64,000 nucleotides of DNA from Deltaproteobacteria bacterium (GTDB taxonomy: Bacteria; Desulfobacterota; Binatia; UBA1149; JAJCZL01), in the NCBI GenBank assembly GCA_029262415.1, contig JAJCZL010000033.1, forward strand, positions 56,471 through 120,470. The letters are read 5' to 3'. Made by a program: the position numbers and the translations under genes. Every line of letters begins with the position of its first letter. Position 1 is the stretch's first letter. Positions 2,669 to 63,633 of the stretch are shown here, in pieces. Under the pieces are notes generated by a model. That model made no database searches, was not told the origin of the DNA, and saw nothing but the letters and a program-made list of their open reading frames with translations.

Positions 2669-2754
2669 CTTCGCTGCAGGCGAGCGCGTGGAGCCCAACC
2701 CATGAGGCATTGCGGCGTTGGTGGCGGCGTGCGGCTTCGACAATAATCCGGGCG

Positions 2755-3501
2755 GTGTTGATCCTTCCAGCCATCGATGTTCGAGGCGGCCGCTGCGTGC
2801 GGTTGTTCCAAGGTGACTACGACAAAGAGACGATTTTCGGCGAAGACCCGGTTGCGATGGCGGCGAGGTGGATCGGTGAAGGTGCAGCGGGCTTACACAT
2901 CGTTGACCTCGACGGTGCACGCGGCGAGTACACCGCGAACCAGGGTGCGGTCGAAGCGATAGTCCTGGCCGTCAAGGAAAAGAGCGGTGCCCGGCCGGTG
3001 ACGACTCAGGTCGGTGGCGGCATCCGCGCGATGCATTCGATTGAACGCTGGCTGTCGATGGGAATCGACCGCGTGATTATCGGCACTGCCGCGGTCGAGG
3101 AGCCGGAGTTGATCACCCGCGCTGCGGTGAAGTTCCCGGGCCGCGTTTGGGTCGGTATCGATGCTAGAGGCGGCAAGGTCGCCGTCGATGGTTGGACCCG
3201 AACCACCGAGAAGGATGCCGTAGATCTCGCACATGAGGTCCAAGACCGCGGCGCGGGCGGAATCGTCTATACCAATATCGAGCGCGACGGGACCGGCAAG
3301 GGGGTCGATGCCGAGGCGGTAGCCGACCTGGCCGAACAGCTCGACGTTCCGGTCATCGCCTCGGGCGGCGTTCACAACGCCGACGACGTACGGCGATTGC
3401 GGGAGTACGGCACGACCAATATTGTCGGTGTCATCGTTGGTCGCGCGTTGTACGAGAACAGCGTCAGCATGGCCGAACTGCTTGTCGCTGCCGGACAGTG
3501 A
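2755..3501 (+). CDS. hisA: phosphoribosylformimino-AICAR phosphate isomerase
   Basis: TIM-barrel isomerase that opens the ribose ring of ProFAR to give PRFAR, the HisHF substrate. The GTG start at 2755 gives 248 aa, normal for the family, beginning [12 protein letters not shown] with catalytic Asp8. [10 protein letters not shown] and [10 protein letters not shown] follow, the latter carrying the second catalytic Asp, and ASGGVHN lies near the C-terminus. The frame stays open upstream to 2539, but that part overlaps hisH and is not HisA-like. There is an 86-nt gap after hisH and a stop overlap with the hisF frame. Confidence 0.95.
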
Positions 3502-8044: not shown

Positions 8045-8211
8045 CTGCGCTTCTCCGCCCTTTCTGAAGGTCGCTGCGAGTGCTGGCGCGAAGCTAGAAC
8101 CGGCCTCCGGCGTTGTCAATGACAAATGAGTAATCCCGCCCTCAACGTTGCGTTCAGGGGGGCCCAGTCCGGAAAAATCCGTGTCCGTGGGATCTGCCGG
8201 AGCTTGAAGTA

Positions 8212-9876
8212 GTGGCGCCTCAGGTACCGTTGCGTATCGTCCCGCTGGGCGGCCTCGGCGAGTTCGGCTTGAACTGCATGATCATCGAGAGCCCCGACGA
8301 TGCCGTGGTGATCGACTGTGGCTTGATGTTCCCCGAAGACCACATGCTCGGAATCGATCGTGTGATCCCCGACGTGAGCTACCTACACAGCCTTGGCAAA
8401 AAGGTGAAAGGGTTTGTCCTGACCCACGGACACGAAGACCACCTTGGAGCGCTTCCCTACGTCTTGCCGCAGATCGATGCGCCGGTTTGGGCGACTCCGT
8501 TCACCGCAGAATTGCTGCGTCGAAAGCTCGAAGAGTATCCAGCGGCTGCGGCTGCACGGATCGAAGAGTTCGAACCGGGTACGCCGTGGCGTGTTGGCCG
8601 GTTCGATATCGAAGGCATGCACGTGACCCACAGCTTCGTTGATGCGTGCGCGATCGCGATCCGCGCGGGGACGAGCACGGTCGTGCACTCGGGAGATTTC
8701 AAGATCGACAACAACCCGGTCGACGGCCGTCGGACCGATCTCGATCGTTTGCGTGAACTTGGAGACGAAGGCGTTACCCTGTTGATGTCGGATTCGACCA
8801 ATGTCGAGCGCCGTGGCCGGACCAAGTCTGAGTCTGAAGTTCGCGGCTACCTCGAGCCGATCTTCGAGAAGACCGAGGGGCGCTTGATCGTCACGACGTT
8901 CGCTTCACACCTGCATCGAGTGGCGGCGATCATCTCGCTGTGCGAACAGTACGGGCGTCGTATCGCGTTACTCGGACGCAGCATGGAGAATAACGTCTCG
9001 ATCGCGACACGTACGGGGCACATCCGCATCCCCGGTGAGTTGCTGGTCAGCCGCCGCGAAGCAGAGAAGTTGCCGGGACGCGAGGTGTGCATCATTGCGA
9101 CCGGTTGCCAGGGCGAGCCGCGTTCTGCGCTTACCAGAATCGCGACGCTGGAAATGCGCGGCCTTGCGCTCGGGCCCGGCGACGCGGCGGTATTCTCATC
9201 GAACGTCATTCCCGGAAACGAGCGTGCCATCAGCGCAGTGATCTCCCAGCTCTACAAGTCGGGGGCCGAAGTCTACTACCAAGCGATCAGGGACGTGCAT
9301 GTCTCGGGTCACGGTGCGCGCGAGGATCTGCGCGAGATGCTCGAAGCCGTGCGGCCGCGATACTTCGTTCCGTTGCACGGCGAGTACCGCAACCTGACCC
9401 ATCATGCGCGGCTGGCGGTTGAGTGCGGAGTCTCCGAGCAAGACTGTTTTCGACTGGTGGACGGCGACGTTCTCGAGATCGATGCGAGTGGCGCACGGCG
9501 CGCGGGGACGGTGACTGCGGGGCGGATTCTCGTCGACGGGGAAAGCGTAGGTGAGGTCGACGCCACGGTTTTGCGCGACCGCCGCTACATCTCCGAAGAC
9601 GGCGTTGTTTTGGTTATCCTCGCAGTCTCGCAGCAAACCGGCGAGATTCTCTCCGGCCCTGAGCTGGTGACGCGCGGAATCGCGCAGGCCGAGCAAGAGT
9701 GGGGCGAAATGTCCGGTGGTGCGCGCGCGGTCGTCGATCTGGTGGGGGAGATGACTCCGGAAGCAATCGCCGATCTTGCCGAGCTACAAGAAAAGGTCCG
9801 GCTGTGCGTGCGCCGCTATTTTCGCCGCACTTACAACGCACGTCCAGTCGTCGTTCCGTACGTCATGGAGTTATGA
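8212..9876 (+). CDS. rnj: ribonuclease J-family beta-CASP nuclease
   Basis: Metallo-beta-lactamase/beta-CASP RNase with 5' exonuclease and endonuclease activity in RNA decay and maturation. The metal site [10 protein letters not shown] (71-80: His72, His74, Asp76, His77) is intact. The beta-CASP stretch [15 protein letters not shown] and the PLHGEYRNL motif follow, then the dimerisation C-terminal domain. Length of 554 aa is typical. Start is GTG at 8212. RNase J in a Gram-negative with RNase R (46286-48535) is known in deltaproteobacteria-like lineages. Confidence 0.94.
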
Positions 9877-49150: not shown

Positions 49151-50803
49151 TTAAATGAACACCGGTGCGTCGAACTCACCGAACACTCCGCGCATCGCGT
49201 CTGAGATCTCGCCGAGAGTCGCAGAGGCACGGACCGCATCGATGATAACCGGCATCAGGTTGCCGGTGCCACGCGCTGTTTCGGTCACTGCGGCCAAGGC
49301 CTTACTCCACGCTTGGTCGTCGCGGGTAGAGCGGAGTGTGGCCAGTCCTGCGCGTTGCTTGTTCTCGATGCTCGCGTCGATACGCAGAACGTCTGTCGGG
49401 GTTTCGGTCTCGGCGGTAAAACGATTTACTCCGACGACAATCTGATCCTTGGATTCAACCGCGCGTTGGTAGTTGTAGGCGGCCTGCTGAATCTCTTGCT
49501 GCTGGAACCCATGTTCAATCGCGGCGACTGCACCGCCGAGTTTATCGATGGTATCGATGTACTCCACGGCCCGCCGTTCGATCTCGTCGGTCAGATTCTC
49601 GATGTAGTAAGAGCCGGCCATCGGATCGATCGAATCCGCTGCGCCCGATTCATACGCGATGACCTGCTGTGTGCGCAGCGCGACGCCGACCGCGTCTTGT
49701 GTCGGCAAGCCGAGGGCTTCGTCGTAGCTGTTGGTATGCAGTGACTGGGTTCCGCCACATACCGCCGCGAGTGCCTGCAGCGCGACGCGTACCACGTTGT
49801 TGATCGGTTGCTGGGCGGTGAGCGAGGAACCGGCGGTTTGGCTGTGAAAGCGCATCATCATCGAACGTTCGGACTTTGCACCGAAGCGCTCTTTCATAAT
49901 CTTTGCCCAGAGGCGGCGTGCCGCGCGGTACTTAGCGATTTCTTCGAAGAAGTTATTGTGGACGTTGAAAAAGAACGAAAGGCGTCCGGCGAAGTCGTCT
50001 ACGTCGAGGCCCGCGTCGATCGCGCCTTGCACATACGCGATGCCGTCGGCCAGCGTGAAAGCAACTTCTTGCACCGCCGTCGAGCCGGCCTCGCGGATGT
50101 GGTAGCCCGAAATCGAAATGGTGTTCCAACGCGGTACTTGCTCGGCGCAAAACGCGAAGATGTCCGTGGCTATGCGCATCGAGGCGGTCGGCGGGTATAC
50201 GTAGGTGCCGCGCGCGATGTACTCCTTGAGCACGTCGTTTTGGATGGTTCCGCCCACCTTGTCCCAAGGCACGCCGTGACGTTCGGCGACGACGAGATAG
50301 AAGGCAAGCATGATCGAAGCCGTCGCATTGATCGTCATCGAGGTCGTGACTTTGTCGAGCGGGATATCCTTGAGCAGAATTTCCATGTCCTCGATCGAGT
50401 CGATCGCAACCCCGACTTTGCCGACTTCACCGTGCGCGAGCTCATGGTCCGAGTCTCGGCCCATCTGAGTGGGCAGGTCGAATGCGACACTCAGTCCGGT
50501 GGTGCCTTGCTCGAGAAGATAGCGGTAGCGCTCGTTGGACTCCTCGGCAGTACCGAAACCGGCGTACTGGCGCATGGTCCAGAACCGGCCACGGTACATC
50601 GTTGGCTGGATGCCGCGTGTGAAAGGGTAGTCGCCGGGTAAACCCAGGTTTTCGGGGTACTCGCCTCGAGCTGGCCCGTAGATACGGTCCATCGGGATTC
50701 CCGAGGTGCTCTCGAAGCGCTCGCGCCGCTCACCGTTCTTCTCCAGTGCCTCGGCAAGGGTGCCCTGGCTCCACTGCTGGAACTTCTCGTCGAAGGTCGC
50801 CAT
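49151..50803 (-). CDS. methylmalonyl-CoA mutase large subunit (no B12 domain)
   Basis: Adenosylcobalamin-dependent mutase barrel interconverting succinyl-CoA and methylmalonyl-CoA. 550 aa, ending after the barrel ([12 protein letters not shown]), so the cobalamin-binding subunit must be encoded elsewhere. [20 protein letters not shown] has Tyr at the position that is Tyr in methylmalonyl-CoA mutases and Phe in isobutyryl-CoA mutases, as I recall. ATG 50803 rather than 50812, because TAGATT ends eight bases before it. Adjacent decarboxylase genes fit. Confidence 0.9.
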
Positions 50804-50811
50804 AGCGGGCA

Positions 50812-50840
50812 AATCTAGCCGAAAACGTTGACTATCCCAA
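50812..50840 (-). promoter_or_regulatory. candidate leaderless promoter of the mutase gene
   Basis: On the minus strand, TTGGGA (50840-50835), 17-nt spacer, TAGATT (50817-50812), eight bases before ATG 50803. The 99-nt gap from mmdB and lack of Shine-Dalgarno support independent initiation. Confidence 0.5.
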
Positions 50841-50902
50841 GACGCGGGTCGGGCTGATCGGGACCCCGCGAAGGGGGGCTTCGTCGATGCGCGAAATCGG
50901 CG

Positions 50903-52033
50903 CTAGCCGAGCAGGCTGAGCAGTACACCGGCGGCGACCGCGGAGCCGATTACGCCGGCAACGTTGGGAGCCATCGCGTGCATGACGAGGAAGTTGGTCG
51001 GATCGTCTTTTTGCGCCGTGACCATCGCCACGCGTGCGGCCATCGGCACTGCGGAGACGCCCGCAGCACCGATAATCGGGTTAATCGGATTCTTGGAGAA
51101 CTTGTTCATGGCCTTGGCGAAGATCACGCCCGAGGCGGTGGCAACCGAGAACGCGACCATCCCGAGGCAGAAGATTTTGAGTGCTTCCGGGGTGATGAAA
51201 CGGTCGGCTGTGGCTGCTGCGCCAACGCTGACGCCGAGCAGGATGGTGACGATATCAATGAACGCCGATTTCGCGGTGTTGGCCAGACGGTCGGTAACGC
51301 CGGATTCCTTGAGGAGGTTTCCAAAAAACAACATGCCGAGCAGCGTAGTGGCTGCCGGTGCGATCAGAGTACAGATCAAAAAGGCGATGATGGGAAAACT
51401 GATTTTTTCAGTCTTTGAGACTGCGCGCGGCGTCGGCATTTTGATCAGCCGCTCCTTTTTCGTGGTCAGCGCGCGTACGATCGGCGGCTGAATGATCGGC
51501 ACCAGCGCCATATATCCGTAAGCCGCGACTGCGACGGCAGAGAGCAGGTGAGGTGCAAGTCTCGCCGTGATGAAAATGGTGGTCGGGCCGTCGGCTCCGC
51601 CGATGATGCCGATCGCGCCGGCTTCTTGCGCGGTGAAGCCTAACTGCAGCGCGCCCCAATAGGTCGCGAAGATACCGACCTGCGCTGCAGCGCCCAGTAG
51701 GATCAGACGCGGCTGGCTGAGCATCGCCGAGAAGTCGGTCATCGCGCCGACCCCCAAGAAGATCAGCGGCGGGTAAACTTCGTGCTTTACGCCGTAATAC
51801 AACAACTCCATCGTCCCTTCGACAAAAGGCGAGGCGCCACCGCCGGGAATGTTGCCCATCACCATGCCGAATCCGATCGGCACGAGCAGCAGCGGTTCGT
51901 AGTTCTTGCGCACGGCAAGGATGATGAGGGTGATGCCGACACCGATCATCGCCAGGTTCCACAACGTGTCGACGTTCGAGAGGTACAGACCGAAACCGGT
52001 CGACCAAAAGAAGTTCTCGATTGCTGCAAACAT
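50903..52033 (-). CDS. mmdB: Na+-transporting decarboxylase beta subunit
   Basis: Membrane subunit that decarboxylates carboxybiotin and exports Na+. 376 aa with about nine to eleven hydrophobic helices; the ion site GIIGGADGPTTIF and NKFSKNPINPIIGAAGVSAVPMAAR are the family hallmarks. It lies 18 nt after the biotin-carrier gene. The match is to the OadB/MmdB/GcdB family; neighbours favour methylmalonyl-CoA as substrate. Confidence 0.93.
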   Translation of the reverse strand: MFAAIENFFWSTGFGLYLSNVDTLWNLAMIGVGITLIILAVRKNYEPLLLVPIGFGMVMGNIPGGGASPFVEGTMELLYYGVKHEVYPPLIFLGVGAMTDFSAMLSQPRLILLGAAAQVGIFATYWGALQLGFTAQEAGAIGIIGGADGPTTIFITARLAPHLLSAVAVAAYGYMALVPIIQPPIVRALTTKKERLIKMPTPRAVSKTEKISFPIIAFLICTLIAPAATTLLGMLFFGNLLKESGVTDRLANTAKSAFIDIVTILLGVSVGAAATADRFITPEALKIFCLGMVAFSVATASGVIFAKAMNKFSKNPINPIIGAAGVSAVPMAARVAMVTAQKDDPTNFLVMHAMAPNVAGVIGSAVAAGVLLSLLG

Positions 52034-52051
52034 CGGTGTGACTCGCGCCGT

Positions 52052-52501
52052 TTAGGCGATGACCACCAGGAGTTGTCCGTCGCTCACCTGTGCGCCCGCG
52101 CTGACGGCGATCTCCTTGACGGTGCCGGCAATGGGCGTGGCGATGTCGTTTTCCATCTTCATTGCCTCGAGCTTGAGAACGGTTTGTCCGGCAGTGACGG
52201 TGTCGCCGACTTTGACCAGAAGCGAAGTGACGACGCCGGGGATTGGAGCCGTGATTGCGCCCGGGCCTGAGGCCGAGGCACTCGTTGTAGGCGCTGAGCT
52301 TGCAGCGACAGGAGCCGCCGGGGCTGACGCCGGGGCTGACGCCGGAGCCGATGCCGACGTGGCTACGCGGGCGGGTCCGCCTCCGACCTGCTCGACCTGA
52401 AAGGTTTCGCCGTCAACCGTGACTTCGGCGCCGCCACGGCCGTCGTCTTGGACACTTACGTCGAACTCTTTGTCCCCGGATTTTAGCTTGTAGGTTGCCA
52501 T
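52052..52501 (-). CDS. mmdC: biotin carboxyl-carrier subunit
   Basis: 149-aa biotinyl protein carrying CO2 from the transferase to the beta subunit. N-terminal small beta domain, Ala/Pro/Ser-rich flexible linker (about 48-80), biotinyl domain with Lys115 in EAMKMEN. ATG 52501. The linker DNA holds a short repeated Ser-Ala-Pro-Ala unit. Confidence 0.92.
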   Translation of the reverse strand: MATYKLKSGDKEFDVSVQDDGRGGAEVTVDGETFQVEQVGGGPARVATSASAPASAPASAPAAPVAASSAPTTSASASGPGAITAPIPGVVTSLLVKVGDTVTAGQTVLKLEAMKMENDIATPIAGTVKEIAVSAGAQVSDGQLLVVIA

Positions 52502-52527
52502 TGGGTACTCCGAAATTTCTCGCCGGC

Positions 52528-52923
52528 TCAGCGCAACTGGTGAAGTCGTGCGCCTGTGCCCCATGCGCTTACCGGCTCAGGTGTCCGCACGCGCACGGAA
52601 CGCTCGCGATGCACGGCGAACGCGGCGAGTGCCACGCGCAGGTGCCGCTCGTGCCTGTCATCGGACCGCGCCGCCTGGGTCTCGGCCCGGTCCGGTGACG
52701 CCGCGCCCGTTGCCGCTGCACCGGCAGTCGCCGTACCCGCGGTCGCGGCGATGTTTCCGCTGCCCGACGCCGCAGCGGCAGAGCGCGAAGTCTCGCGGAA
52801 CTCGCGATTCAGCAAACCCGAGACGACGTTGATGACGGCGACCAGTAGCGCAAGCGCGAAGAACACCGAGCCGACGCCGATGGTGGTCATGACCGCACCG
52901 TTTTGTGTGGCTACCGTTTCCAT
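52528..52923 (-). CDS. mmdD: decarboxylase gamma/delta (OadG-type) subunit
   Basis: 131-aa assembly subunit: one membrane helix near the N-terminus (IGVGSVFFALALLVAVINVV), Ala/Gly/Ser-rich linker and a C-terminal segment with the SAW-x-GAR pattern. It is 5 nt after mmdA. Typically links the transferase to the membrane subunits. Confidence 0.82.
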   Translation of the reverse strand: METVATQNGAVMTTIGVGSVFFALALLVAVINVVSGLLNREFRETSRSAAAASGSGNIAATAGTATAGAAATGAASPDRAETQAARSDDRHERHLRVALAAFAVHRERSVRVRTPEPVSAWGTGARLHQLR

Positions 52924-52928
52924 TGCGA

Positions 52929-54479
52929 CTAAAGAGGGATGTTGCCGTGTTTCTTCGGCGGGTTGGTGTCACGCTTGTTGGCGAGCATCGCAAGGGCTTG
53001 CCCGATGCGGATGCGAGTCTCGGCCGGAGCGATCACGCCGTCGATGTAGCCGAGTTCGGCTGCCTGCAGCGGCGTCGCGAACTGGCTGCGATAGTCGTCG
53101 ACGAGTTCTTTGCGGCGGGCGTCGGGGTCCGAGGCCTCGTTGATCTCTTTGCGGAAGATGATGTTGACCGCGCCGTCGGCACCCATGACCGCGATTTCCG
53201 CCGAGGGATAAGCGAGGTTGATGTCGGTGCGGCAGTGCTTGGCGCCCATTACGCAGTACGCGCCGCCGTAGGCCTTGCGGGTGATAACTGTGATCTTCGG
53301 CACCGTGGCCTCGGCGTATGCGTAAACAATCTTCGCGCCGTGGCGAATAATTCCCGCGTACTCCTGCTGGGTGCCCGGCAGGAATCCCGGTACGTCTTCG
53401 AAGGTGACGATCGGGATGTTGAAGCAGTCACAGAAGCGCACGAAGCGCGCGATCTTGTCCGAACAATTAATGTCGAGGCAGCCGGCCAGAACCTTGGGCT
53501 GGTTGGCGACGATCCCGACTGAGCGTCCGCCGATACGCGCAAAACCTACCACCGCATTTTGCGCGAAGCTTGCGTGTACTTCGAAAAAGCTACCGGTATC
53601 GACGGTCGGCTCGATGATCGACTTGATGTCGTAGGGTTTATTCGGGTCATCGGGGATGATGTCGTTCAATTCGGGCGTCAGCCGTTCCAAAGGGTCACCG
53701 ATGTCGATAATCGGCGCGGCGTCTACGTTGTTGGACGGCAGGTAAGAAAGTAGCCGGCGCACCTGATCAATACAGGCAGCGTCGTCGGGCGCCATGAAGT
53801 GCGCGACACCGGTCTTCGCGTTGTGCGTCGCAGCGCCGCCGAGCGCTTCTTGCGTGACCTCTTCGCGTGTCACCGACTTGATCACCTCGGGCCCGGTGAT
53901 GAACATGTAACTGCGTTGCTCGACCATGAAGATGAAGTCGGTCAGGGCAGGGGAGTACACAGCTCCGCCGGCGCACGGACCCATGATCGCGGAGAGCTGC
54001 GGAATCACGCCCGATGCCAGTGTGTTCAGGCAGAAGATATCGGAGTAGCCGCCGAGGCTCTCGACGCCCTCTTGTATGCGCGCGCCGCCCGAGTCGTTCA
54101 GGCCCACGCACGGTGCGCCGGCTTTCATGGCCATGTTCATGACCTTGCAGATCTTCTCGGCAAGGGTGTGAGAGAGCGATCCGCCGAAGACCGTGAAGTC
54201 TTGGGCGAAGGCGAACACTGTGCGCCCATCGACCTCGCCGTAGCCGGTGACGATCGCATCGCCCGCGACTTTCTGTTTCTCCATGCCGAAATTGGTGCAG
54301 CGGTGGACCCGGAACTTGTCGATCTCGACGAAGGTTCCCTGGTCGAACAGCCGCGCGATGCGCTCTCGGGCGGTCATCAGGCCGCGCTCATGGCGCTTGT
54401 CGATTTTGGCCTGGCCGCCGCCGGCTTCGGCTTCGGAGTGACGGCGTTTGATCTCTTCGAGAACTTGGTTGACCGGCAT
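52929..54479 (-). CDS. mmdA: methylmalonyl-CoA decarboxylase / acyl-CoA carboxyltransferase alpha subunit
   Basis: 516-aa biotin-dependent carboxyltransferase moving CO2 from methylmalonyl-CoA to biotin. Crotonase-fold halves with [54 protein letters not shown] and the second-half [24 protein letters not shown]. PccB-type carboxylases look alike; the adjoining mmdDCB genes decide the call. ATG 54479 with GAGAAGCG upstream. First gene of the block; a perfect palindrome lies 72 bp before its start. Confidence 0.92.
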
Positions 54480-54550
54480 ATTCGTTCGCTTCTCGGGCTC
54501 TGAGGACGCTTTCGGGCTGTTTCCCTGCTTTCTTTCGGACCCTAATGGGC

Positions 54551-54576
54551 CCGTATCGAGGCCGGCCTCGATACGG
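54551..54576. repeat. perfect 26-bp palindrome between divergent operons
   Basis: Two 13-bp arms, no loop, in the 255-bp gap between mmdA (-) and the amine dehydrogenase heavy chain (+). Placement suits an operator; as RNA from the minus strand it would be a leader hairpin. The rest of the gap has no clear promoter. Confidence 0.85.
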
Positions 54577-54734
54577 ATCGAATCGCGTTCAACTATTAGA
54601 AAGGGGGGCAAAAGACAACTCGGTGGGTTCTTGCACTAGTCGCTGCTGTCGGATCAGATCCAGCGAGACTGCATCGGCGCTGTTTCCTGCTTGGGTAGGG
54701 GGGCGCAGAGCGGGACCTGTGCGGATCTGCCTTC

Positions 54735-56051
54735 GTGATGAATTTTCGACTAGCCGGTTTGCCCGCGAACGTGTCCCCTGCGACGCTCCTCGCGATCACC
54801 GTTGCGGCTCTGATCGTCGCGCCGATGCGTGGGGCGGCCCCGGCAATCGCAGCAAGCGCGGCGGTCGAAATTGAAGAAACCGACAGGTCTCTGGTCTTGC
54901 CCTCCACGCCCGGTGCGCACTGGGTCTGGGCAAGCGACTCGGTGATGGGCCGCACCGTTCTGTTCGACGGCGACGACGCGCGGATGCTCGGCATGATCGA
55001 CGGTGGGCGCGAGCTGCGTCCGCTGATGCCCTATCGGAACACCGACCGCGGCGAGATCTACATCGTCGAAACCATCTACTCGCGTGGAAACCGCGGAAAG
55101 CGTCAGGATCTGGTTTCGATTTATGACGCCGCAACTTTGCGCGTTGTCGGTGATGTCGAGATACCGGCAAAAACCGCGGATGGTAACGTTGGTCCGCACT
55201 TTGCTGCTCTCCTCGACGACGGGCGTTTCTTTATCGCCCTCAACCAAGACCCCGGCACGTCGGTTTCCGTTGTCGATCTTGGAACCCGCAAGTTTGCCGG
55301 CGAAATACCGACGCCCGGCTGCTCGCTCGTGTACCCGGCAGGGCCGCGCCGCTTTATGATGCTGTGCGGAGATGGCCGCGCGGTGCTGGTAACGCTCGAC
55401 GAAAGCGGCGCGGAGGCGGCGCGCACGCTGAGCCCGACGTTCTTTGACGCGGTCGACAACCCGGTTAGCGATCGTGCTGCGCGAGACGGTGATAGCTGGC
55501 TGTTTACGACCTACGACGGTGTGCTACACGCGATCGATACCTCGGGCGATCAGCCGCGACCGGGTGAGCCCTGGTCGCTGTTTACCGCTGCAGACCGTAA
55601 GCAGCGACGCAGGCCCGGCGGTCAGCAACCGCTTGCTGTTCACGTGGCCTCGCGTCGGCTTTACGTCCTCACGCACGTGGGCGGAGCCGGCAGCCACAAG
55701 AACTCGGGCGACGAGGTTTGGGTTTACGACCTTACGGAGAAAAAACATATTGAGACTCTCTCGGTGAACCACTTTTTGCTTTCCTACCTAGCCACCCAGG
55801 CCCAGTACGCGACGTCGGTTGGCGATGAAGGCGAAGGGTCGTTATTCAAACGAATCGCGGCCAAGGTCGCGGGCTGGATCGTGGCGAATCCGGGCGCTGA
55901 CAGTATCGCGGTAACCCAGGATGAGCGGCCGCTGTTGTTCTTGGGCAATTCAGAGGTCGGCGCGCTTGGGGTTATTGATGCGCTGACCGGCCGACACTTG
56001 CGTGACATCGCACCGACCGGTGCGGTCGGTGGTGCGGTGGTGGTGCCGTGA
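54735..56051 (+). CDS. aauB: amine dehydrogenase heavy chain (aromatic-amine type)
   Basis: Large subunit of a periplasmic tryptophan-tryptophylquinone amine dehydrogenase. 438 aa with signal peptide (hydrophobic core about 17-38) and a seven-bladed propeller, seen as repeated segments such as YIVETIYSRGNRGKRQDLVSI, HFAALLDDGRFFIALNQDPG and RRLYVLTHVGGAGSHKNSGD. GTG 54735 is followed by ATG 54738; either may start. Overlaps the E gene by 4 bp. Methylamine versus aromatic type is judged from the light chain. Confidence 0.9.
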   Translation: MMNFRLAGLPANVSPATLLAITVAALIVAPMRGAAPAIAASAAVEIEETDRSLVLPSTPGAHWVWASDSVMGRTVLFDGDDARMLGMIDGGRELRPLMPYRNTDRGEIYIVETIYSRGNRGKRQDLVSIYDAATLRVVGDVEIPAKTADGNVGPHFAALLDDGRFFIALNQDPGTSVSVVDLGTRKFAGEIPTPGCSLVYPAGPRRFMMLCGDGRAVLVTLDESGAEAARTLSPTFFDAVDNPVSDRAARDGDSWLFTTYDGVLHAIDTSGDQPRPGEPWSLFTAADRKQRRRPGGQQPLAVHVASRRLYVLTHVGGAGSHKNSGDEVWVYDLTEKKHIETLSVNHFLLSYLATQAQYATSVGDEGEGSLFKRIAAKVAGWIVANPGADSIAVTQDERPLLFLGNSEVGALGVIDALTGRHLRDIAPTGAVGGAVVVP

Positions 56052-56599
56052 GCGCGTTGCAAATCGATCCGGCCATCGACGTTGCGATACGTGGTGGCCT
56101 CGCGCTGCTGTTCGCCGCCGCAGCTCTCCACAAACTGCGCGACCTTACACGTTTCCGTGCGATCGTCGTGGCGTATGAGGTGCTTCCCTCTACGCTGGTA
56201 TCCGCAGCCGCCCCGCTGGTAGCTGCGTGCGAAGCAGCGCTGGCGGTGGGACTGCTGTTTCCGGCCGATACGAGCCGTACTGTGTGGGCTCTTGCTGCGG
56301 CTGCGATGTTCGCTCTGTACGCAGTTGCGATCGCCGTGAACCTTTACCGAGGCCGACGCGACATCGACTGCGGGTGCGGGTTCGGCACGGCATCCGAAAA
56401 AATAGGCCCGGCTTTGTTGGTCCGCAACGCGTTTCTAGTCACGGTCGCGCTGTGGGCCTCGGCACCTCGCGCTGCACGTAGCCTTGTTGCGCTCGATGCG
56501 TTCACGGTATTCGCCGCGCTAGCCGGTTCGGCGTTGCTTTACGCGGCGAGCGAAAAATTACGCGGACTTCCAAGCTCAGGTCGCGGAGAAACACCATGA
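56048..56599 (+). CDS. aauE: MauE/AauE-family membrane maturation protein
   Basis: 183-aa inner-membrane protein of the MauE (DoxX-like) family, needed for export or disulfide formation of the light chain. Four hydrophobic helices (about 12-30, 45-70, 78-97, 120-140) and the CGCGFG motif in RDIDCGCGFGTASEKIG, plausibly redox-active. GTG start overlaps the heavy-chain stop; the stop overlaps the D gene. Confidence 0.88.
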   Translation: MSALQIDPAIDVAIRGGLALLFAAAALHKLRDLTRFRAIVVAYEVLPSTLVSAAAPLVAACEAALAVGLLFPADTSRTVWALAAAAMFALYAVAIAVNLYRGRRDIDCGCGFGTASEKIGPALLVRNAFLVTVALWASAPRAARSLVALDAFTVFAALAGSALLYAASEKLRGLPSSGRGETP

Positions 56600-57228
56600 T
56601 CGAAGCCCTGGTCGTTTCCAGTCTGGTGCTTTGGGTCGCGGTGGTCGCGCTGACTTTCATGGTCTACGCGCTGGTTCGCCAGGTCGGTGTGTTGCACGAA
56701 CGTCTCGCGCCGGCGGGTGCGCTAGCTGCTGCCACTGGGCCGGCCGTGGGCGAGACATCGCCTGAGATCACCGTGCCCGCGCTCGCCGGTGGTACCGTGA
56801 CCGTCGGCGGCCTGGCGGCTGAGGGGCTGAGCACGCTGCTGTTTTTTCTCTCGCCGACATGTCCGGTCTGCGAAACGTTGCTGCCCACTGTGTTACGTAT
56901 CGCAGGTGAAGAGGGGCTTCGCCTGGTTCTCGCGAGCGATGGACCGGCGGCGGAGCACCAGGCGTTCGTTACTGCGAACGATCTCTCGCGTTATCCCTAC
57001 GTGCTTTCACGCGATCTCGGTCTGGCCTTCGAGGTTGCAAAGCTTCCTTATGCGGTGCTGATCGACGCTGCAGGCGTGGTGTGCGCGAAAGGACTCGTCA
57101 ACACTCGCGAGCACGTGGAGAGCCTATTTACCGCACGCGAGTACGGTGTGGCTTCGATCCAAGAGTATATTCGCAAACAAGGCAGCGCCCGTAGCGCAGA
57201 CCGGCATCGATCGGGAGCTTTGCGGTGA
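56596..57228 (+). CDS. aauD: MauD/AauD-family thiol-disulfide protein
   Basis: 210-aa membrane-anchored thioredoxin-fold protein. N-terminal helix (about 5-27) and active site CPVC (Cys89, Cys92) in FFLSPTCPVCETLLPTV. Expected to form or isomerise the many disulfides of the light chain. Overlaps both neighbours by 4 bp, showing tight coupling B-E-D-A. Confidence 0.92.
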   Translation: MIEALVVSSLVLWVAVVALTFMVYALVRQVGVLHERLAPAGALAAATGPAVGETSPEITVPALAGGTVTVGGLAAEGLSTLLFFLSPTCPVCETLLPTVLRIAGEEGLRLVLASDGPAAEHQAFVTANDLSRYPYVLSRDLGLAFEVAKLPYAVLIDAAGVVCAKGLVNTREHVESLFTAREYGVASIQEYIRKQGSARSADRHRSGALR

Positions 57229-57800
57229 GCCGACTCGACCGCTGGACGGAACGTGCCGCTCGTGGTGTCGCGCGGCGCACATCGCGCAGGAGTTTTCTTG
57301 CACGATTCGGCATGGTTCTAGCCGGCGGTGCGGCGCTGCCGCTGCTGCCCGTCGCGCGCGGCGCGGCGTCGGGCGATGCAACCGGTATGACGGCTGCCGA
57401 TGCACGCGCCGCTGCACCCAAAGAGCTGATCGATGGACCGCAGGGCGACCCGACCAGTTGTGAGTACTGGCGGCACTGCGCGATCGACGGCTTCTTGTGC
57501 AGCTGTTGCGGGGGGACGCAGACCGCGTGTCCGCCAGGCACAGAAATGTCGCCGGTTACTTGGATCGGTACCTGTCGCAATCCGGGTGACGGTAGAGATT
57601 ACGTGGTTTCTTACAACGATTGTTGCGGCAAGAGTCTATGTGGCCGCTGTTTCTGCAACCGCAACGAAGGCGAGCGGCCGATGTATTACCCGTTTCGCAA
57701 CAACGACATCAACTGGTGCATGGGGTCGGAGAGCCAAATCTACAACTGTTCGACCGCGATTGTTATCGGTGTTGCCCTAGAGGAGCAGCCCGAGAAATGA
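57225..57800 (+). CDS. aauA: amine dehydrogenase light chain with TTQ cofactor (aromatic-amine type)
   Basis: 191-aa catalytic subunit. Twin-Arg signal SRRSFLARFG (20-29). Trp113 (TWIGTC) and Trp164 (INWCM), 51 apart, match the TTQ Trp57/Trp108 spacing of methylamine dehydrogenase; Asp132 in NDCCG matches the catalytic Asp. The mature chain has 14 Cys and the segments FLCSCCGG, WIGTC, CGRCFCN, NWCM. As I recall, these agree with Alcaligenes faecalis aromatic amine dehydrogenase rather than 12-Cys methylamine dehydrogenase. Oxidises primary amines to aldehyde and ammonia. Confidence 0.95.
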   Translation: MSRLDRWTERAARGVARRTSRRSFLARFGMVLAGGAALPLLPVARGAASGDATGMTAADARAAAPKELIDGPQGDPTSCEYWRHCAIDGFLCSCCGGTQTACPPGTEMSPVTWIGTCRNPGDGRDYVVSYNDCCGKSLCGRCFCNRNEGERPMYYPFRNNDINWCMGSESQIYNCSTAIVIGVALEEQPEK

Positions 57801-58249
57801 CGCGCGCGGTGACATTCGCGGCGGCGGCCTCGACCTGCTGGATCGCCGCCGCGCTTGCTTACGCGGGGGACGCCATGGTTCCTCCGGCGCAGGACTACAT
57901 GCTCAACTGCAGGGGCTGTCACGGTGCGGATGCGCGCGGAGCGCCGGGCCATGTCCCGTCGCTGGTCGGGCTCGACCGTTTCCTGGCGACACCGCAGGGA
58001 CGGGCGTACGTCGTACAGGTTCCCGGTGTCGCCCATGTCGGCATCTCCGACGCGCGTGTCGCGGCCCTGCTAAACTGGACGCTTGAGAGCTTCGGCAACT
58101 GTCGATTCGAGGCCTACACCGAAGAAGAAGTTGCAGGGTTGCGCAGAGGCCCGTCTGTCAGCGACGATAGCGTTGCCGCGCGGCTGGTGCGGCCGGTTGT
58201 GGCGAACAGTTCGTGTTCTACGGCCGAAGCGGTTGGCGCTCCGCATTAG
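57797..58249 (+). CDS. monohaem c-type cytochrome of the amine dehydrogenase cluster
   Basis: 150-aa exported protein: signal peptide to about residue 23, one haem motif CRGCH (38-42) in DYMLNCRGCHGADARG, later Met-poor helices and a Cys pair near the C-terminus. ATG overlaps the light-chain stop. Its position matches the small monohaem cytochrome (orf-2) after aauBEDA. It may accept electrons from the TTQ enzyme or serve in its maturation. Confidence 0.85.
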   Translation: MTRAVTFAAAASTCWIAAALAYAGDAMVPPAQDYMLNCRGCHGADARGAPGHVPSLVGLDRFLATPQGRAYVVQVPGVAHVGISDARVAALLNWTLESFGNCRFEAYTEEEVAGLRRGPSVSDDSVAARLVRPVVANSSCSTAEAVGAPH

Positions 58250-61008: not shown

Positions 61009-63633
61009 GTGCGTAACGTTCTCCGCCGCCGTTTGTCTGTGTTCGCCGTTGGCGCGGTATTTCTCGCGTTTGCCGGGCACGCTGTAGCCGGCACTGTCTC
61101 TATCGCACCGGTCAAGGACAACACGCTCTTCAGCGAAGACGGCGCGCTCAGTAACGGTGCCGGGATGTACTTGTTCGCGGGCGTTACCAACTTCGGTGGG
61201 CTCCGCCGTGCGCTTTTGCAGTTTGATATTGCTGCAGCGATTCCTGCCGGAGCGACGATAAACGGTGCAACGCTGACGCTGTCGCTGTCGAAATCTAACT
61301 CGGGACCGAGGACGGTTGTGCTTAGGCGCGTGATCGCGGCTTGGGGCGAGGCCGGGTCGGACGCCGGTGGTGAGGAGGGACAGGGGGGCGCGGCCGCGCC
61401 CGGCGATGCCACCTGGACGCACGCTTTCTTCGATACGGATCTATGGATCTCGCCGGGTGGTGACTTGGCAGCGGGCAACGTCGCAACCAGCGTGGTGGGC
61501 TCGATTTCGCAGGATTACGTGTGGTCGGGCGCAGGGCTTACGGCTCTCGTGCAGAACTGGCTCGACAACCCGCAAGTCAACCTTGGGCTGGCTGTCATCG
61601 GTGATGAGGCCGGCACAGGCAGCACCAAGCGATTCGACAGCATGCAGAATCCGACAGTGTCGGTGCGGCCACAACTCGACGTTGACTTCTCGGCGCTGGG
61701 CGCAACCGGCGCGTGCTGCGCGGGTGATGGAACCTGTACCTCGGTCTCCGACCCGGGCAGCGCTTGCGATGGTAGCTATCAGGGCTCCGGATCGACTTGT
61801 GGGTCCAACCCGTGCACCGGTGCAACCGGCGCGTGTTGTACAGCTGACGAAACGGCTGCATGCGGCGAACTCACCCAGTCGGCCTGCGCAAGCCAAGGCG
61901 GGGTGTTTCAGGGTGCCGGTGGCAGCTGCGCCGCGAGCGAGTGTCCGGTTGTGCTGACGCCGTATGTGGATCCGTTGCCGATACCAAGCATCGCTCAACC
62001 GGTGAGCGGTATCGGCGGCGGGGTCGCCACCTACGACATTGCGGCCCGGCAAATCACCGCCCAGGTTCACCGCGATCTTCCGCCGACGCTGCTGTGGGGC
62101 TACGGCGACGGGGCGAGTGGGGCGACCACGCCGGGGCCGGTCATTGAGGCGTCGGTCGGTGAGCAGGTGACGGTAAATTGGATCAACGATCTGCGCGATT
62201 CGGGCGGACAGGCGTTGACCAAGCACCACCTAGACGTCGATCTGTGTCCGCACGGTGCCTCCCTTGGCGAAACGCGCACGGTCGTGCATCTTCACGGGGC
62301 GCACACCGCTGCGGAATTCGACGGGTACCCCGAGTCGACGACGGTTCCCGGGCAGAGTTCGACCTACGAATACCCGAACAACCAGTTGCCGGCGCTTCTG
62401 TGGTACCACGACCACGCGCTCGGGATCACCAGGCTGAACCTCTACATGGGCCTGGCCGGTTTCTACATCATCCGCGACGATGTCGAGGGCGCACTCGGCC
62501 TGCCCGCGGGGGAGTTTGAGGTGCCGCTCATGATCCTCGACCGCAGGTTGCGTGCCGACGGTACGCTCGAGTACCCGAGTGCGTGGCAGGAGCACTTTCA
62601 CGGCGATAAGATTTTGGTCAACGGCAAGGTGTGGCCGTTCATGGAGGTCAAGCCCGGCAAGTACCGGTTCCGCGTCGTCAACGCATCGGGTTCGCGAACG
62701 TTGACGCTTTCGTTGTCCGACGGCGCGAGCTTTCAGATGATCGGCAGCGATGGCGGCCTGCTTACCGCGCCGCTTACGCTCAGCGAGATTACGCTGGGGC
62801 CGGCCGAACGCGCCGACCTGGTGATGGATTTCGAGGCCTACGCACCGGGGACTGAGGTCATTCTGAGCAACTCCGCGCCGGCTCCGTTCCCCGGAACCCC
62901 CGGTGTCGGCGTGCTGCCCGACGTGATGAAGTTCGTCGCCGTTGCGGGTACCGGGTTTACCGGTGCCGTCGCGGCGTCGCTACGTCCGTTCACCGCTTTT
63001 GACGAAGCAGACACCGTTGTCGAGCGCGACTTCGAGCTGGCCAAGGTCGCCGACGTATGTACCGGCAGCGCGTGGGCGATCAATGGGCTTGGATGGGACG
63101 ATCTCAGCGAGTTCCCATTGCTCGGCACCACCGAGGTTTGGCGCTTCATCAACCGCAGCGGAATCATGCACCCGATGCACGTTCATCTCGACAGCTTCCA
63201 GATCATTGATCGACAGGACTTCACTGTGGTCAACGATGAGATCGTCCCGTCCGGATCACCGCTCGGGCCTGCGCCGGCAGAAGCGGGTTGGAAAGACACC
63301 GTGCAGGTCTATCCGAATGAAATCGTTCGCGTGATTACGCGGTTCGAAGACTTCAAGGGAAGGTTCGCCTACCACTGTCACATCGCCGAACACGAAGACC
63401 AAGAAATGATGCGCCAGTTCGAGACCGTGGTTTGCGGTGATACCGGCGGCGCTGATGGAGTCTCGGCTACCGATGCACTGATCGCGCTTGCCAACGCGGT
63501 TGGCGCGGGGCCTTGCATGACGTGTCTCTGCGATGTCGACGGTGGCGGGACGGTTACTGCTACCGATGCGCTACTGATCCTGCAGTCCGGCGTCGGCCAG
63601 CCGGTGACGCTCGGTTGCAACGCCTGTTTGTAG
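61009..63633 (+). CDS. modular multicopper oxidase with DNRLRE-like and dockerin-like domains
   Basis: 874-aa exported protein. Signal peptide to about 27; N-terminal DNRLRE-like beta domain (about 30-215); two Cys-rich TGACC units (about 231-316); CotA/bilirubin-oxidase-type multicopper oxidase (about 335-810); dockerin-like Ca-binding repeats (ATDALIALAN, ATDALLILQS) at 811-874. All copper ligands are present: His427/429, His467/469, His721/724/726, His789, Cys790, His791, His795 and axial Met800. Likely anchored outside the cell, oxidising metal ions or phenolics. GTG 61009, no Shine-Dalgarno. Confidence 0.92.
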   Translation: MRNVLRRRLSVFAVGAVFLAFAGHAVAGTVSIAPVKDNTLFSEDGALSNGAGMYLFAGVTNFGGLRRALLQFDIAAAIPAGATINGATLTLSLSKSNSGPRTVVLRRVIAAWGEAGSDAGGEEGQGGAAAPGDATWTHAFFDTDLWISPGGDLAAGNVATSVVGSISQDYVWSGAGLTALVQNWLDNPQVNLGLAVIGDEAGTGSTKRFDSMQNPTVSVRPQLDVDFSALGATGACCAGDGTCTSVSDPGSACDGSYQGSGSTCGSNPCTGATGACCTADETAACGELTQSACASQGGVFQGAGGSCAASECPVVLTPYVDPLPIPSIAQPVSGIGGGVATYDIAARQITAQVHRDLPPTLLWGYGDGASGATTPGPVIEASVGEQVTVNWINDLRDSGGQALTKHHLDVDLCPHGASLGETRTVVHLHGAHTAAEFDGYPESTTVPGQSSTYEYPNNQLPALLWYHDHALGITRLNLYMGLAGFYIIRDDVEGALGLPAGEFEVPLMILDRRLRADGTLEYPSAWQEHFHGDKILVNGKVWPFMEVKPGKYRFRVVNASGSRTLTLSLSDGASFQMIGSDGGLLTAPLTLSEITLGPAERADLVMDFEAYAPGTEVILSNSAPAPFPGTPGVGVLPDVMKFVAVAGTGFTGAVAASLRPFTAFDEADTVVERDFELAKVADVCTGSAWAINGLGWDDLSEFPLLGTTEVWRFINRSGIMHPMHVHLDSFQIIDRQDFTVVNDEIVPSGSPLGPAPAEAGWKDTVQVYPNEIVRVITRFEDFKGRFAYHCHIAEHEDQEMMRQFETVVCGDTGGADGVSATDALIALANAVGAGPCMTCLCDVDGGGTVTATDALLILQSGVGQPVTLGCNACL

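Follow-up and report, generated by a model that had tools for sequence, protein, structure and literature searches.

The aau cluster of Alcaligenes faecalis, which encodes an aromatic amine dehydrogenase (AADH), has the gene order B-E-D-A, is reported to lack mauF, mauG, mauL, mauM and mauN, and is followed by a gene for a monohaem cytochrome (orf-2), the same layout as in the locus described here. Clusters of this B-E-D-A-cytochrome kind are already known, as in A. faecalis, and widespread. To our knowledge, the origin of the cofactor tryptophan tryptophylquinone (TTQ) in AADH has been an open question since the aau cluster was found without mauG. In the methylamine dehydrogenase (MADH) clusters, MauE and MauD take part in forming the disulfides of the light chain. 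Here we analyze a five-gene cluster, B-E-D-A-C (54735-58249), within a 64-kb stretch of DNA (C33:56471-120470; hereafter the window, meaning the whole stretch). We tentatively propose, at a confidence just short of even, that C, a monohaem cytochrome devoid of the usual methionine ligand, builds TTQ in place of MauG.

A five-gene cluster encoding an AADH-type enzyme

The five genes lie on the forward strand and consecutive genes overlap by four bases (GTGA, ATGA, GTGA and ATGA), as an earlier note on this DNA had correctly recorded. B (54735-56051), which begins with GTG, encodes the amine dehydrogenase heavy chain, an aauB/mauB-like beta-propeller (Pfam MADH heavy chain, PF06433, E-value 3.8e-40); about residues 349-388, close to the C terminus of the propeller, form an insertion of ~40 residues relative to Paracoccus denitrificans MauB. 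E (56048-56599) encodes a MauE/DoxX-type membrane protein (PF07291, E-value 1.1e-25), and D (56596-57228) a MauD thioredoxin-like accessory protein that passes the NCBIfam TIGR02661 cut-off (203.4 against 188.6 bits). A (57225-57800) encodes a TTQ light chain of 191 residues (Pfam MADH light chain, PF02975, E-value 6.6e-52), which the tree described below assigns to the AADH type. C (57797-58249) encodes the predicted TTQ maturase, a c-type cytochrome of class I that has one haem and lacks the segment with the Met ligand. Because the B-E-D-A-C order is found again in dozens of relatives, the cluster is not a chance arrangement.

The light chain carries the hallmarks of a TTQ enzyme, namely both TTQ tryptophans and the light-chain cysteine framework. 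A twin-arginine signal motif, SRRSFL, was recognized by eye at residues 20-25 (57282-57299). Trp residues stand at 7, 82, 113 and 164, and the 14 Cys of the mature protein are spread over residues 79-175. Trp113 (codon 57561-57563) and Trp164 (codon 57714-57716) align with Trp residues of both AADH and MADH; these positions are occupied in 101/101 and 100/101 aligned light chains, respectively, the single exception being a truncated row. The two TTQ tryptophans, the twin-arginine signal and the 14 mature Cys, like the monohaem cytochrome that follows, had been noticed earlier and are present. Two of the Cys, 95 and 139, are also present in AADH, and the MADH sequence aligned with them has Ser at both positions.

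Among proteins of solved structure, those nearest to A and B are the chains of A. faecalis AADH (2agl_D is the best PDB relative of A). A maximum-likelihood tree was built from 101 light-chain cores (114 columns), from which a motif filter left out L081, L168, L169 and L174, whose core motif is changed. Many forks of this tree are open. A 100/100 branch, 2.44 changes per column in length, sets five MADH rows, from Paracoccus, Methylobacterium and Indioceanicola plasmids, apart from 96 rows, made up of the window, A. faecalis AADH and 94 further sequences. Within these 96, the window light chain and A. faecalis AADH belong to one set of 20 rows (98/89). Furthermore, the window subunits miss the NCBIfam MADH equivalog cut-offs (heavy chain, 144.1 against 454.45 bits; light chain, 186 against 196.85), which the P. 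denitrificans subunits clear (678.4 and 399 bits). Tree and cut-offs together rule out MADH membership and indicate that the window enzyme is, judged by these comparisons, AADH-type by descent. The earlier description of the cluster as aau-like is thereby upheld, since the light chain does not group with MauA. We dropped the count of 14 Cys as a diagnostic AADH mark; it is typical only, being found in 85 of the 96 AADH-type rows (12 Cys in seven rows, 10 in four) and also in one of the five MADH rows (L125).

C is a cytochrome without the Met ligand segment

C contains one CXXCH motif, CRGCH, at residues 38-42 (57908-57922), and has a weak Pfam/NCBIfam match to cytochrome c. It likely carries a signal peptide, leaving ~127 mature residues. 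The motif and the fold identify C as a class I cytochrome c. It did not match PF03150 and has a single haem motif rather than two, which sets it apart from the MauG family. A Foldseek search with C returned nothing under an E-value of 0.001 (best, 1.9e-3), and a single-sequence protein search gave five matches; in a profile search with the C family, 7997 candidates were scored.

C resembles cytochrome c552 but is missing a segment of ~20 residues that bears the Met ligand. Thermus thermophilus c552 (1c52) aligns with C on either side of a gap that takes in its residues from about 50 to 70, the haem ligand Met69 among them. At the corresponding place C has the tripeptide VPG (residues 75-77, 58019-58027), where Met-type paralogues and Thermus c552 have a Met-bearing segment of 18-20 residues. 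The loss is consistent across the family. Met occupies the ligand column in 18/18 Met-type paralogues and in 0/71 aligned C proteins, an alignment that excludes L046, whose frame runs off its contig. The same column holds Met in 1/68 database matches, the weakest one, and in 0/30 C proteins of sphingomonads, a set that shares at least three members with the 71. CXXCH is kept in 71/71, and no alternative Met, His or Lys is present in more than 29/71. Trp94 is found in 65/71 C proteins versus 0/18 Met-type paralogues. Judged from these alignments, the Met-less haem cytochromes linked to the AADH-type enzyme are a distinct family.

Divergent sphingomonad members (L260-L265) have LPN instead of VPG and an extra conserved Cys ahead of it (FLC or FMC), with the Met ligand still missing. 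Public records annotate C poorly, either as a hypothetical protein or with a start codon placed 3' of the haem motif (L171:9278-9658, L167:8522-9007, L170:8932-9393).

C accompanies the enzyme across genomes

We compared 90 AADH-type loci (80 genome loci, nine plasmid loci and the window), which range from short stretches to 20 kb, absence being scored from the fetched stretch. Profiles for MauG, MauF and amicyanin matched 0/90 of these loci, which extends to all of them the earlier observation that the window locus has no mauF, amicyanin or mauG, C being the constant fifth gene. In the MADH loci, MauG and MauF were found in 5/5, amicyanin in 4/5 and C in 0/5; these three profiles were built partly from the tested MADH loci, and the independent cases are L172 and L173 for MauG and MauF, and L173 for amicyanin. 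The two kinds of locus are thus mirror images of each other, which favors C as a replacement for MauG.

With the C profile, C was detected in 70/80 genome loci, 9/9 plasmid loci and the window. Most of the genome loci, which had first been found with the window's C alone, went into this profile; the nine plasmid loci are an independent set. Eight of the ten C-less genome loci are B-A pairs in which the search found no E or D, and one of these, L078, stops 176 bases past A. The other two are L018, which stops inside an apparent C, and L055, whose E and D lie about 2 kb further along. A strong C occurs elsewhere in the genome for nine of the ten, the exception being L078. B-A pairs away from C, with C elsewhere, are better evidence than plain co-occurrence.

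In the family of Sphingopyxis witflariensis, A is present in 39/397 genomes and C (E-value 1e-15 or better) in the same 39 and in 0/358 others; this sample is centered on a genome chosen for having the cluster. In the window's phylum, A and C occur in the same 5/395 genomes; C scores at least 120 bits in these five, and the best of the remaining matches reaches 43.5. A search of the 395 phylum genomes at an E-value of 0.001 matched 47, 42 of them at no more than 43.5 bits, as is expected of other cytochromes. In both samples the best 9 or 10 first-look candidates per genome were scored, and the search profile (A2) draws on the C of the window and on that of two or more of the 39 sphingomonad-family genomes. 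The co-occurrence p-values, 6e-55 and 1e-11, ignore kinship and linkage.

Seven loci contain two light chains and two heavy chains with a single E-D-C set, in tandem (L023, L025, L028, L034, L039 and L057) or on opposite strands (L027). Judged from gene content, the second dehydrogenase in each has no accessory genes of its own. One C for two light chains is what would be seen with an accessory factor that acts in trans, and in its distribution C behaves like such a factor, apparently equal in rank to E and D.

The strongest rival explanation is that C is a dedicated electron acceptor, the counterpart of amicyanin, in which the missing Met tunes the potential or another ligand is used, and that TTQ is made otherwise. 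The overlap of its gene with A and its nature as a cytochrome with a likely signal peptide are in keeping with such a role, and the C profile detected no second, Met-type cytochrome in 60/80 genome loci. However, C is retained beside a Met-type cytochrome that immediately follows A in 20/80 genome and 8/9 plasmid loci, and none of the 71 aligned C proteins has the Met ligand or its segment, which disfavors an ordinary electron-transfer cytochrome. In addition, PMC9547800 lists azurin as the acceptor of aralkylamine dehydrogenase, EC 1.4.9.2, citing the Alcaligenes xylosoxidans enzyme. We keep the acceptor role as a rival and regard it as unlikely.

MauG in the window genome and in other enzyme-bearing genomes

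The absence of a visible TTQ maturase, claimed earlier, holds for the locus, and MauG was not found within the window; it does not hold for the genome. A genome-wide search gave one strong CCP_MauG match (PF03150, 185 bits) on contig C57, the other four reaching 15 bits or less. The protein concerned (L002:1333-2382, 349 residues) scores 262 bits with TIGR03791 and has CXXCH motifs at 82 and 228. Tyr301 stands at the peroxidase Met-ligand position, as in MauG, whose Tyr-His haem ligation is given in PMC6405878. Match, two haem motifs and Tyr together place the protein in the MauG family. The statement that the genome has no MauG is therefore false, and since this unlinked protein is present, the lack of a maturase cannot be deduced from the window genome alone.

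This protein opens another explanation, that an unlinked MauG-family dihaem protein matures TTQ and that genomes without one use another peroxidase. Its score and its Tyr301 fit such a function, and a CCP_MauG match was found in 79/115 enzyme genomes, the window's own included, although five of the 79 (G407, G439, G449, G464 and G243) have only weak or partial matches. On the other hand, the protein falls under the TIGR03791 equivalog cut-off of 443.85 bits (P. denitrificans MauG itself scores 94.6), and no amine genes were seen in the frames within about 1.5 kb of its gene. PF03150 was absent from 9/50 and 10/30 light-chain genomes (19/79 distinct, one genome being duplicated), and from 21/39 light-chain genomes of the S. 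witflariensis family. After removal of four genomes counted twice, the visible duplicates, and addition of the window genome, the pooled count is 36/115 enzyme genomes without PF03150, many of these negatives being metagenome-assembled genomes that are possibly incomplete. Three are named isolates, Sphingopyxis witflariensis DSM 14551 (L041), Sphingopyxis sp. JAI128 (L043) and Sphingosinicella microcystinivorans DSM 19791 (L064).

As a control, P. denitrificans MauG gave 153.5 bits with PF03150, and TIGR03791 picked up MauG on two mau plasmids. It had no match in 22 of 24 AADH-type genomes, the other two giving partial matches in very long frames; in G243, which belongs to the window's own order, the only MauG matches are partial and lie in a frame of 1755 residues. 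The detection of P. denitrificans MauG and the agreement of TIGR03791 make the PF03150 negatives credible. Judged from the other genomes only, the pattern suggests that MauG is dispensable for the enzyme, and we consider maturation by an unlinked MauG-family protein very improbable.

A putative route to TTQ

C is a likely candidate for the missing TTQ builder because it accompanies the enzyme in nearly every genome, many of them without MauG. The earlier note had raised the cytochrome as a possible builder of TTQ; with the co-occurrence and the Met-less haem this is now the leading explanation, and it is still a prediction. In the proposed sequence of events, MauE and MauD would assist disulfide formation in the exported light chain. 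C would be exported and receive its haem, which may be five-coordinate with an open distal site. At this site C would use peroxide or O2 to take electrons from Trp113 and Trp164 of the folded, disulfide-bonded light chain, possibly with the family-typical Trp94 as an electron relay, and the Trp-Trp bond and the quinone would thereby form. The mature enzyme would then oxidize a primary amine and pass the electrons to azurin or another carrier, such as the separate Met-type cytochrome where one is encoded.

Several points weigh against this proposal. We know of no precedent for a single-haem maturase, MauG having two haems. Recombinant AADH expressed from aauBEDA plus orf-2 in Paracoccus denitrificans is reportedly active, in a host that has its own mauG. 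Neighboring genes travel together, and co-occurrence alone is therefore no proof of need. Another residue could, to judge from the sequences, ligate the haem of C in place of the predicted open site. The failure of the C profile to detect a second, Met-type cytochrome in most genome loci, by which C could just as well be an electron acceptor, and the CCP_MauG matches in most enzyme genomes, although none in the 90 examined loci, count on the same side.

As to the chemistry, PMC7876137 describes the first hydroxylation of Trp in MADH as thought to be autocatalytic, with MauG working at a distance on the mono-hydroxylated Trp. Since MauG acts remotely on a MADH Trp, it is chemically conceivable that a small haem protein does so as well. 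The autocatalytic first step also lends itself to a different explanation, in which the TTQ of AADH-type enzymes arises spontaneously or by generic oxidants and C serves as a subunit with a structural or regulatory role; the rest of the multi-electron chemistry would be demanding for a single haem. This explanation leaves unexplained both the invariant haem motif of C (71/71) and the retention of C in all 44 A-bearing genomes of the two evenly drawn samples, and we hold it to be improbable.

The maturase proposal could extend to the whole branch, with somewhat more doubt than we attach to the window's C. A c552-type carrier, once without its Met loop, would have opened its haem and taken over the job of the dihaem MauG, so that this branch of TTQ enzymes would use a single-haem maturase. 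If true, remote tryptophan oxidation would have been invented twice independently, haem maturases would include a further, new kind, and five genes would suffice as a minimal kit for making TTQ enzymes. The open-licence literature searched, from which the key aau papers are absent, did not name an AADH maturase or describe a Met-less linked cytochrome family that accompanies the enzyme even without MauG. The present results single out one small protein as the constant partner of the enzyme. With MauG-family genes not found in three named cluster-bearing isolates, the old question of where the AADH cofactor comes from becomes directly testable in a culturable host.

Relatives of the enzyme and neighboring genes

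Homologous light chains number 5473 at an E-value of 1e-10 or better, and at least 583 light-chain stretches were confirmed in the genome collection. Groups with relatives of the enzyme include Myxococcota, Candidatus Binatota, and alpha- and gammaproteobacteria, so that the occurrence of an aau-like enzyme outside the beta-proteobacteria, as pointed out earlier, is real and yet commonplace. It is suggested that many genes called methylamine dehydrogenase light chain would belong to the AADH branch, and their products may not oxidize methylamine. For Binatota, PMC8262859 reports mauAB and amicyanin as the probable acceptor; the sole Candidatus Binatia locus in our set (L079) is AADH-type, with C present and no amicyanin match. 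A Thermomicrobium roseum plasmid (L126) has very distant light-chain-like frames (about 2714-3232 and 8061-8282, 26-50 bits) with a MauE-like gene adjacent; neither C nor MauG was matched on L126, and a third type of TTQ-like system is possible. On a Sphaerotilus plasmid (L127:7878-9052) the light chain is unannotated and both cytochromes are there, and no heavy chain, E or D is annotated beside it; this cluster looks decayed or truncated.

The right edge of the window is the end of contig C33 (120470 bases), ~5.7 kb beyond the cluster. The genes in between, encoding a DUF192 protein, an Fe-S oxidoreductase (by eye) and a multicopper oxidase, are unrelated to the cluster. The multicopper oxidase (61009-63633, forward strand), which begins 2.8 kb past the cluster, is long and has an N-terminal DNRLRE domain; its best NCBIfam relative is the O-aminophenol oxidase PhsA, under the cut-off. 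On a Chimaeribacter plasmid, too, a multicopper oxidase directly follows the amine cluster (L170:9421-10944). On the other side, propionate-type genes adjoin the cluster on the opposite strand (49151-54611), identified by eye as encoding methylmalonyl-CoA mutase, a decarboxylase beta-subunit-like membrane protein, a biotin carrier and a carboxylase subunit.

Comparison with known systems

The mau clusters of P. denitrificans and Methylobacterium have the B-E-D-A core, the homologous subunits and MauE and MauD in common with the window. They differ in carrying MauF and MauG (5/5) and amicyanin (4/5) and no C, whereas the window locus has C without MauF, MauG or amicyanin, and the light chains of the two lie on opposite sides of the long 100/100 branch (2.44 changes per column). 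The dihaem enzymes MauG, BthA and MbnH would resemble C in its proposed Trp-oxidizing task, with an open haem as the oxidant. They have two haems and about 350 residues, in contrast to the one haem and about 127 mature residues of C, which does not match PF03150. T. thermophilus c552 (1c52) differs from C by residues about 50-70, which have no counterpart there. The aau cluster belongs to a beta-proteobacterium, which the window organism is not, and its light chain shares with that of the window the 98/89 set of 20 rows.

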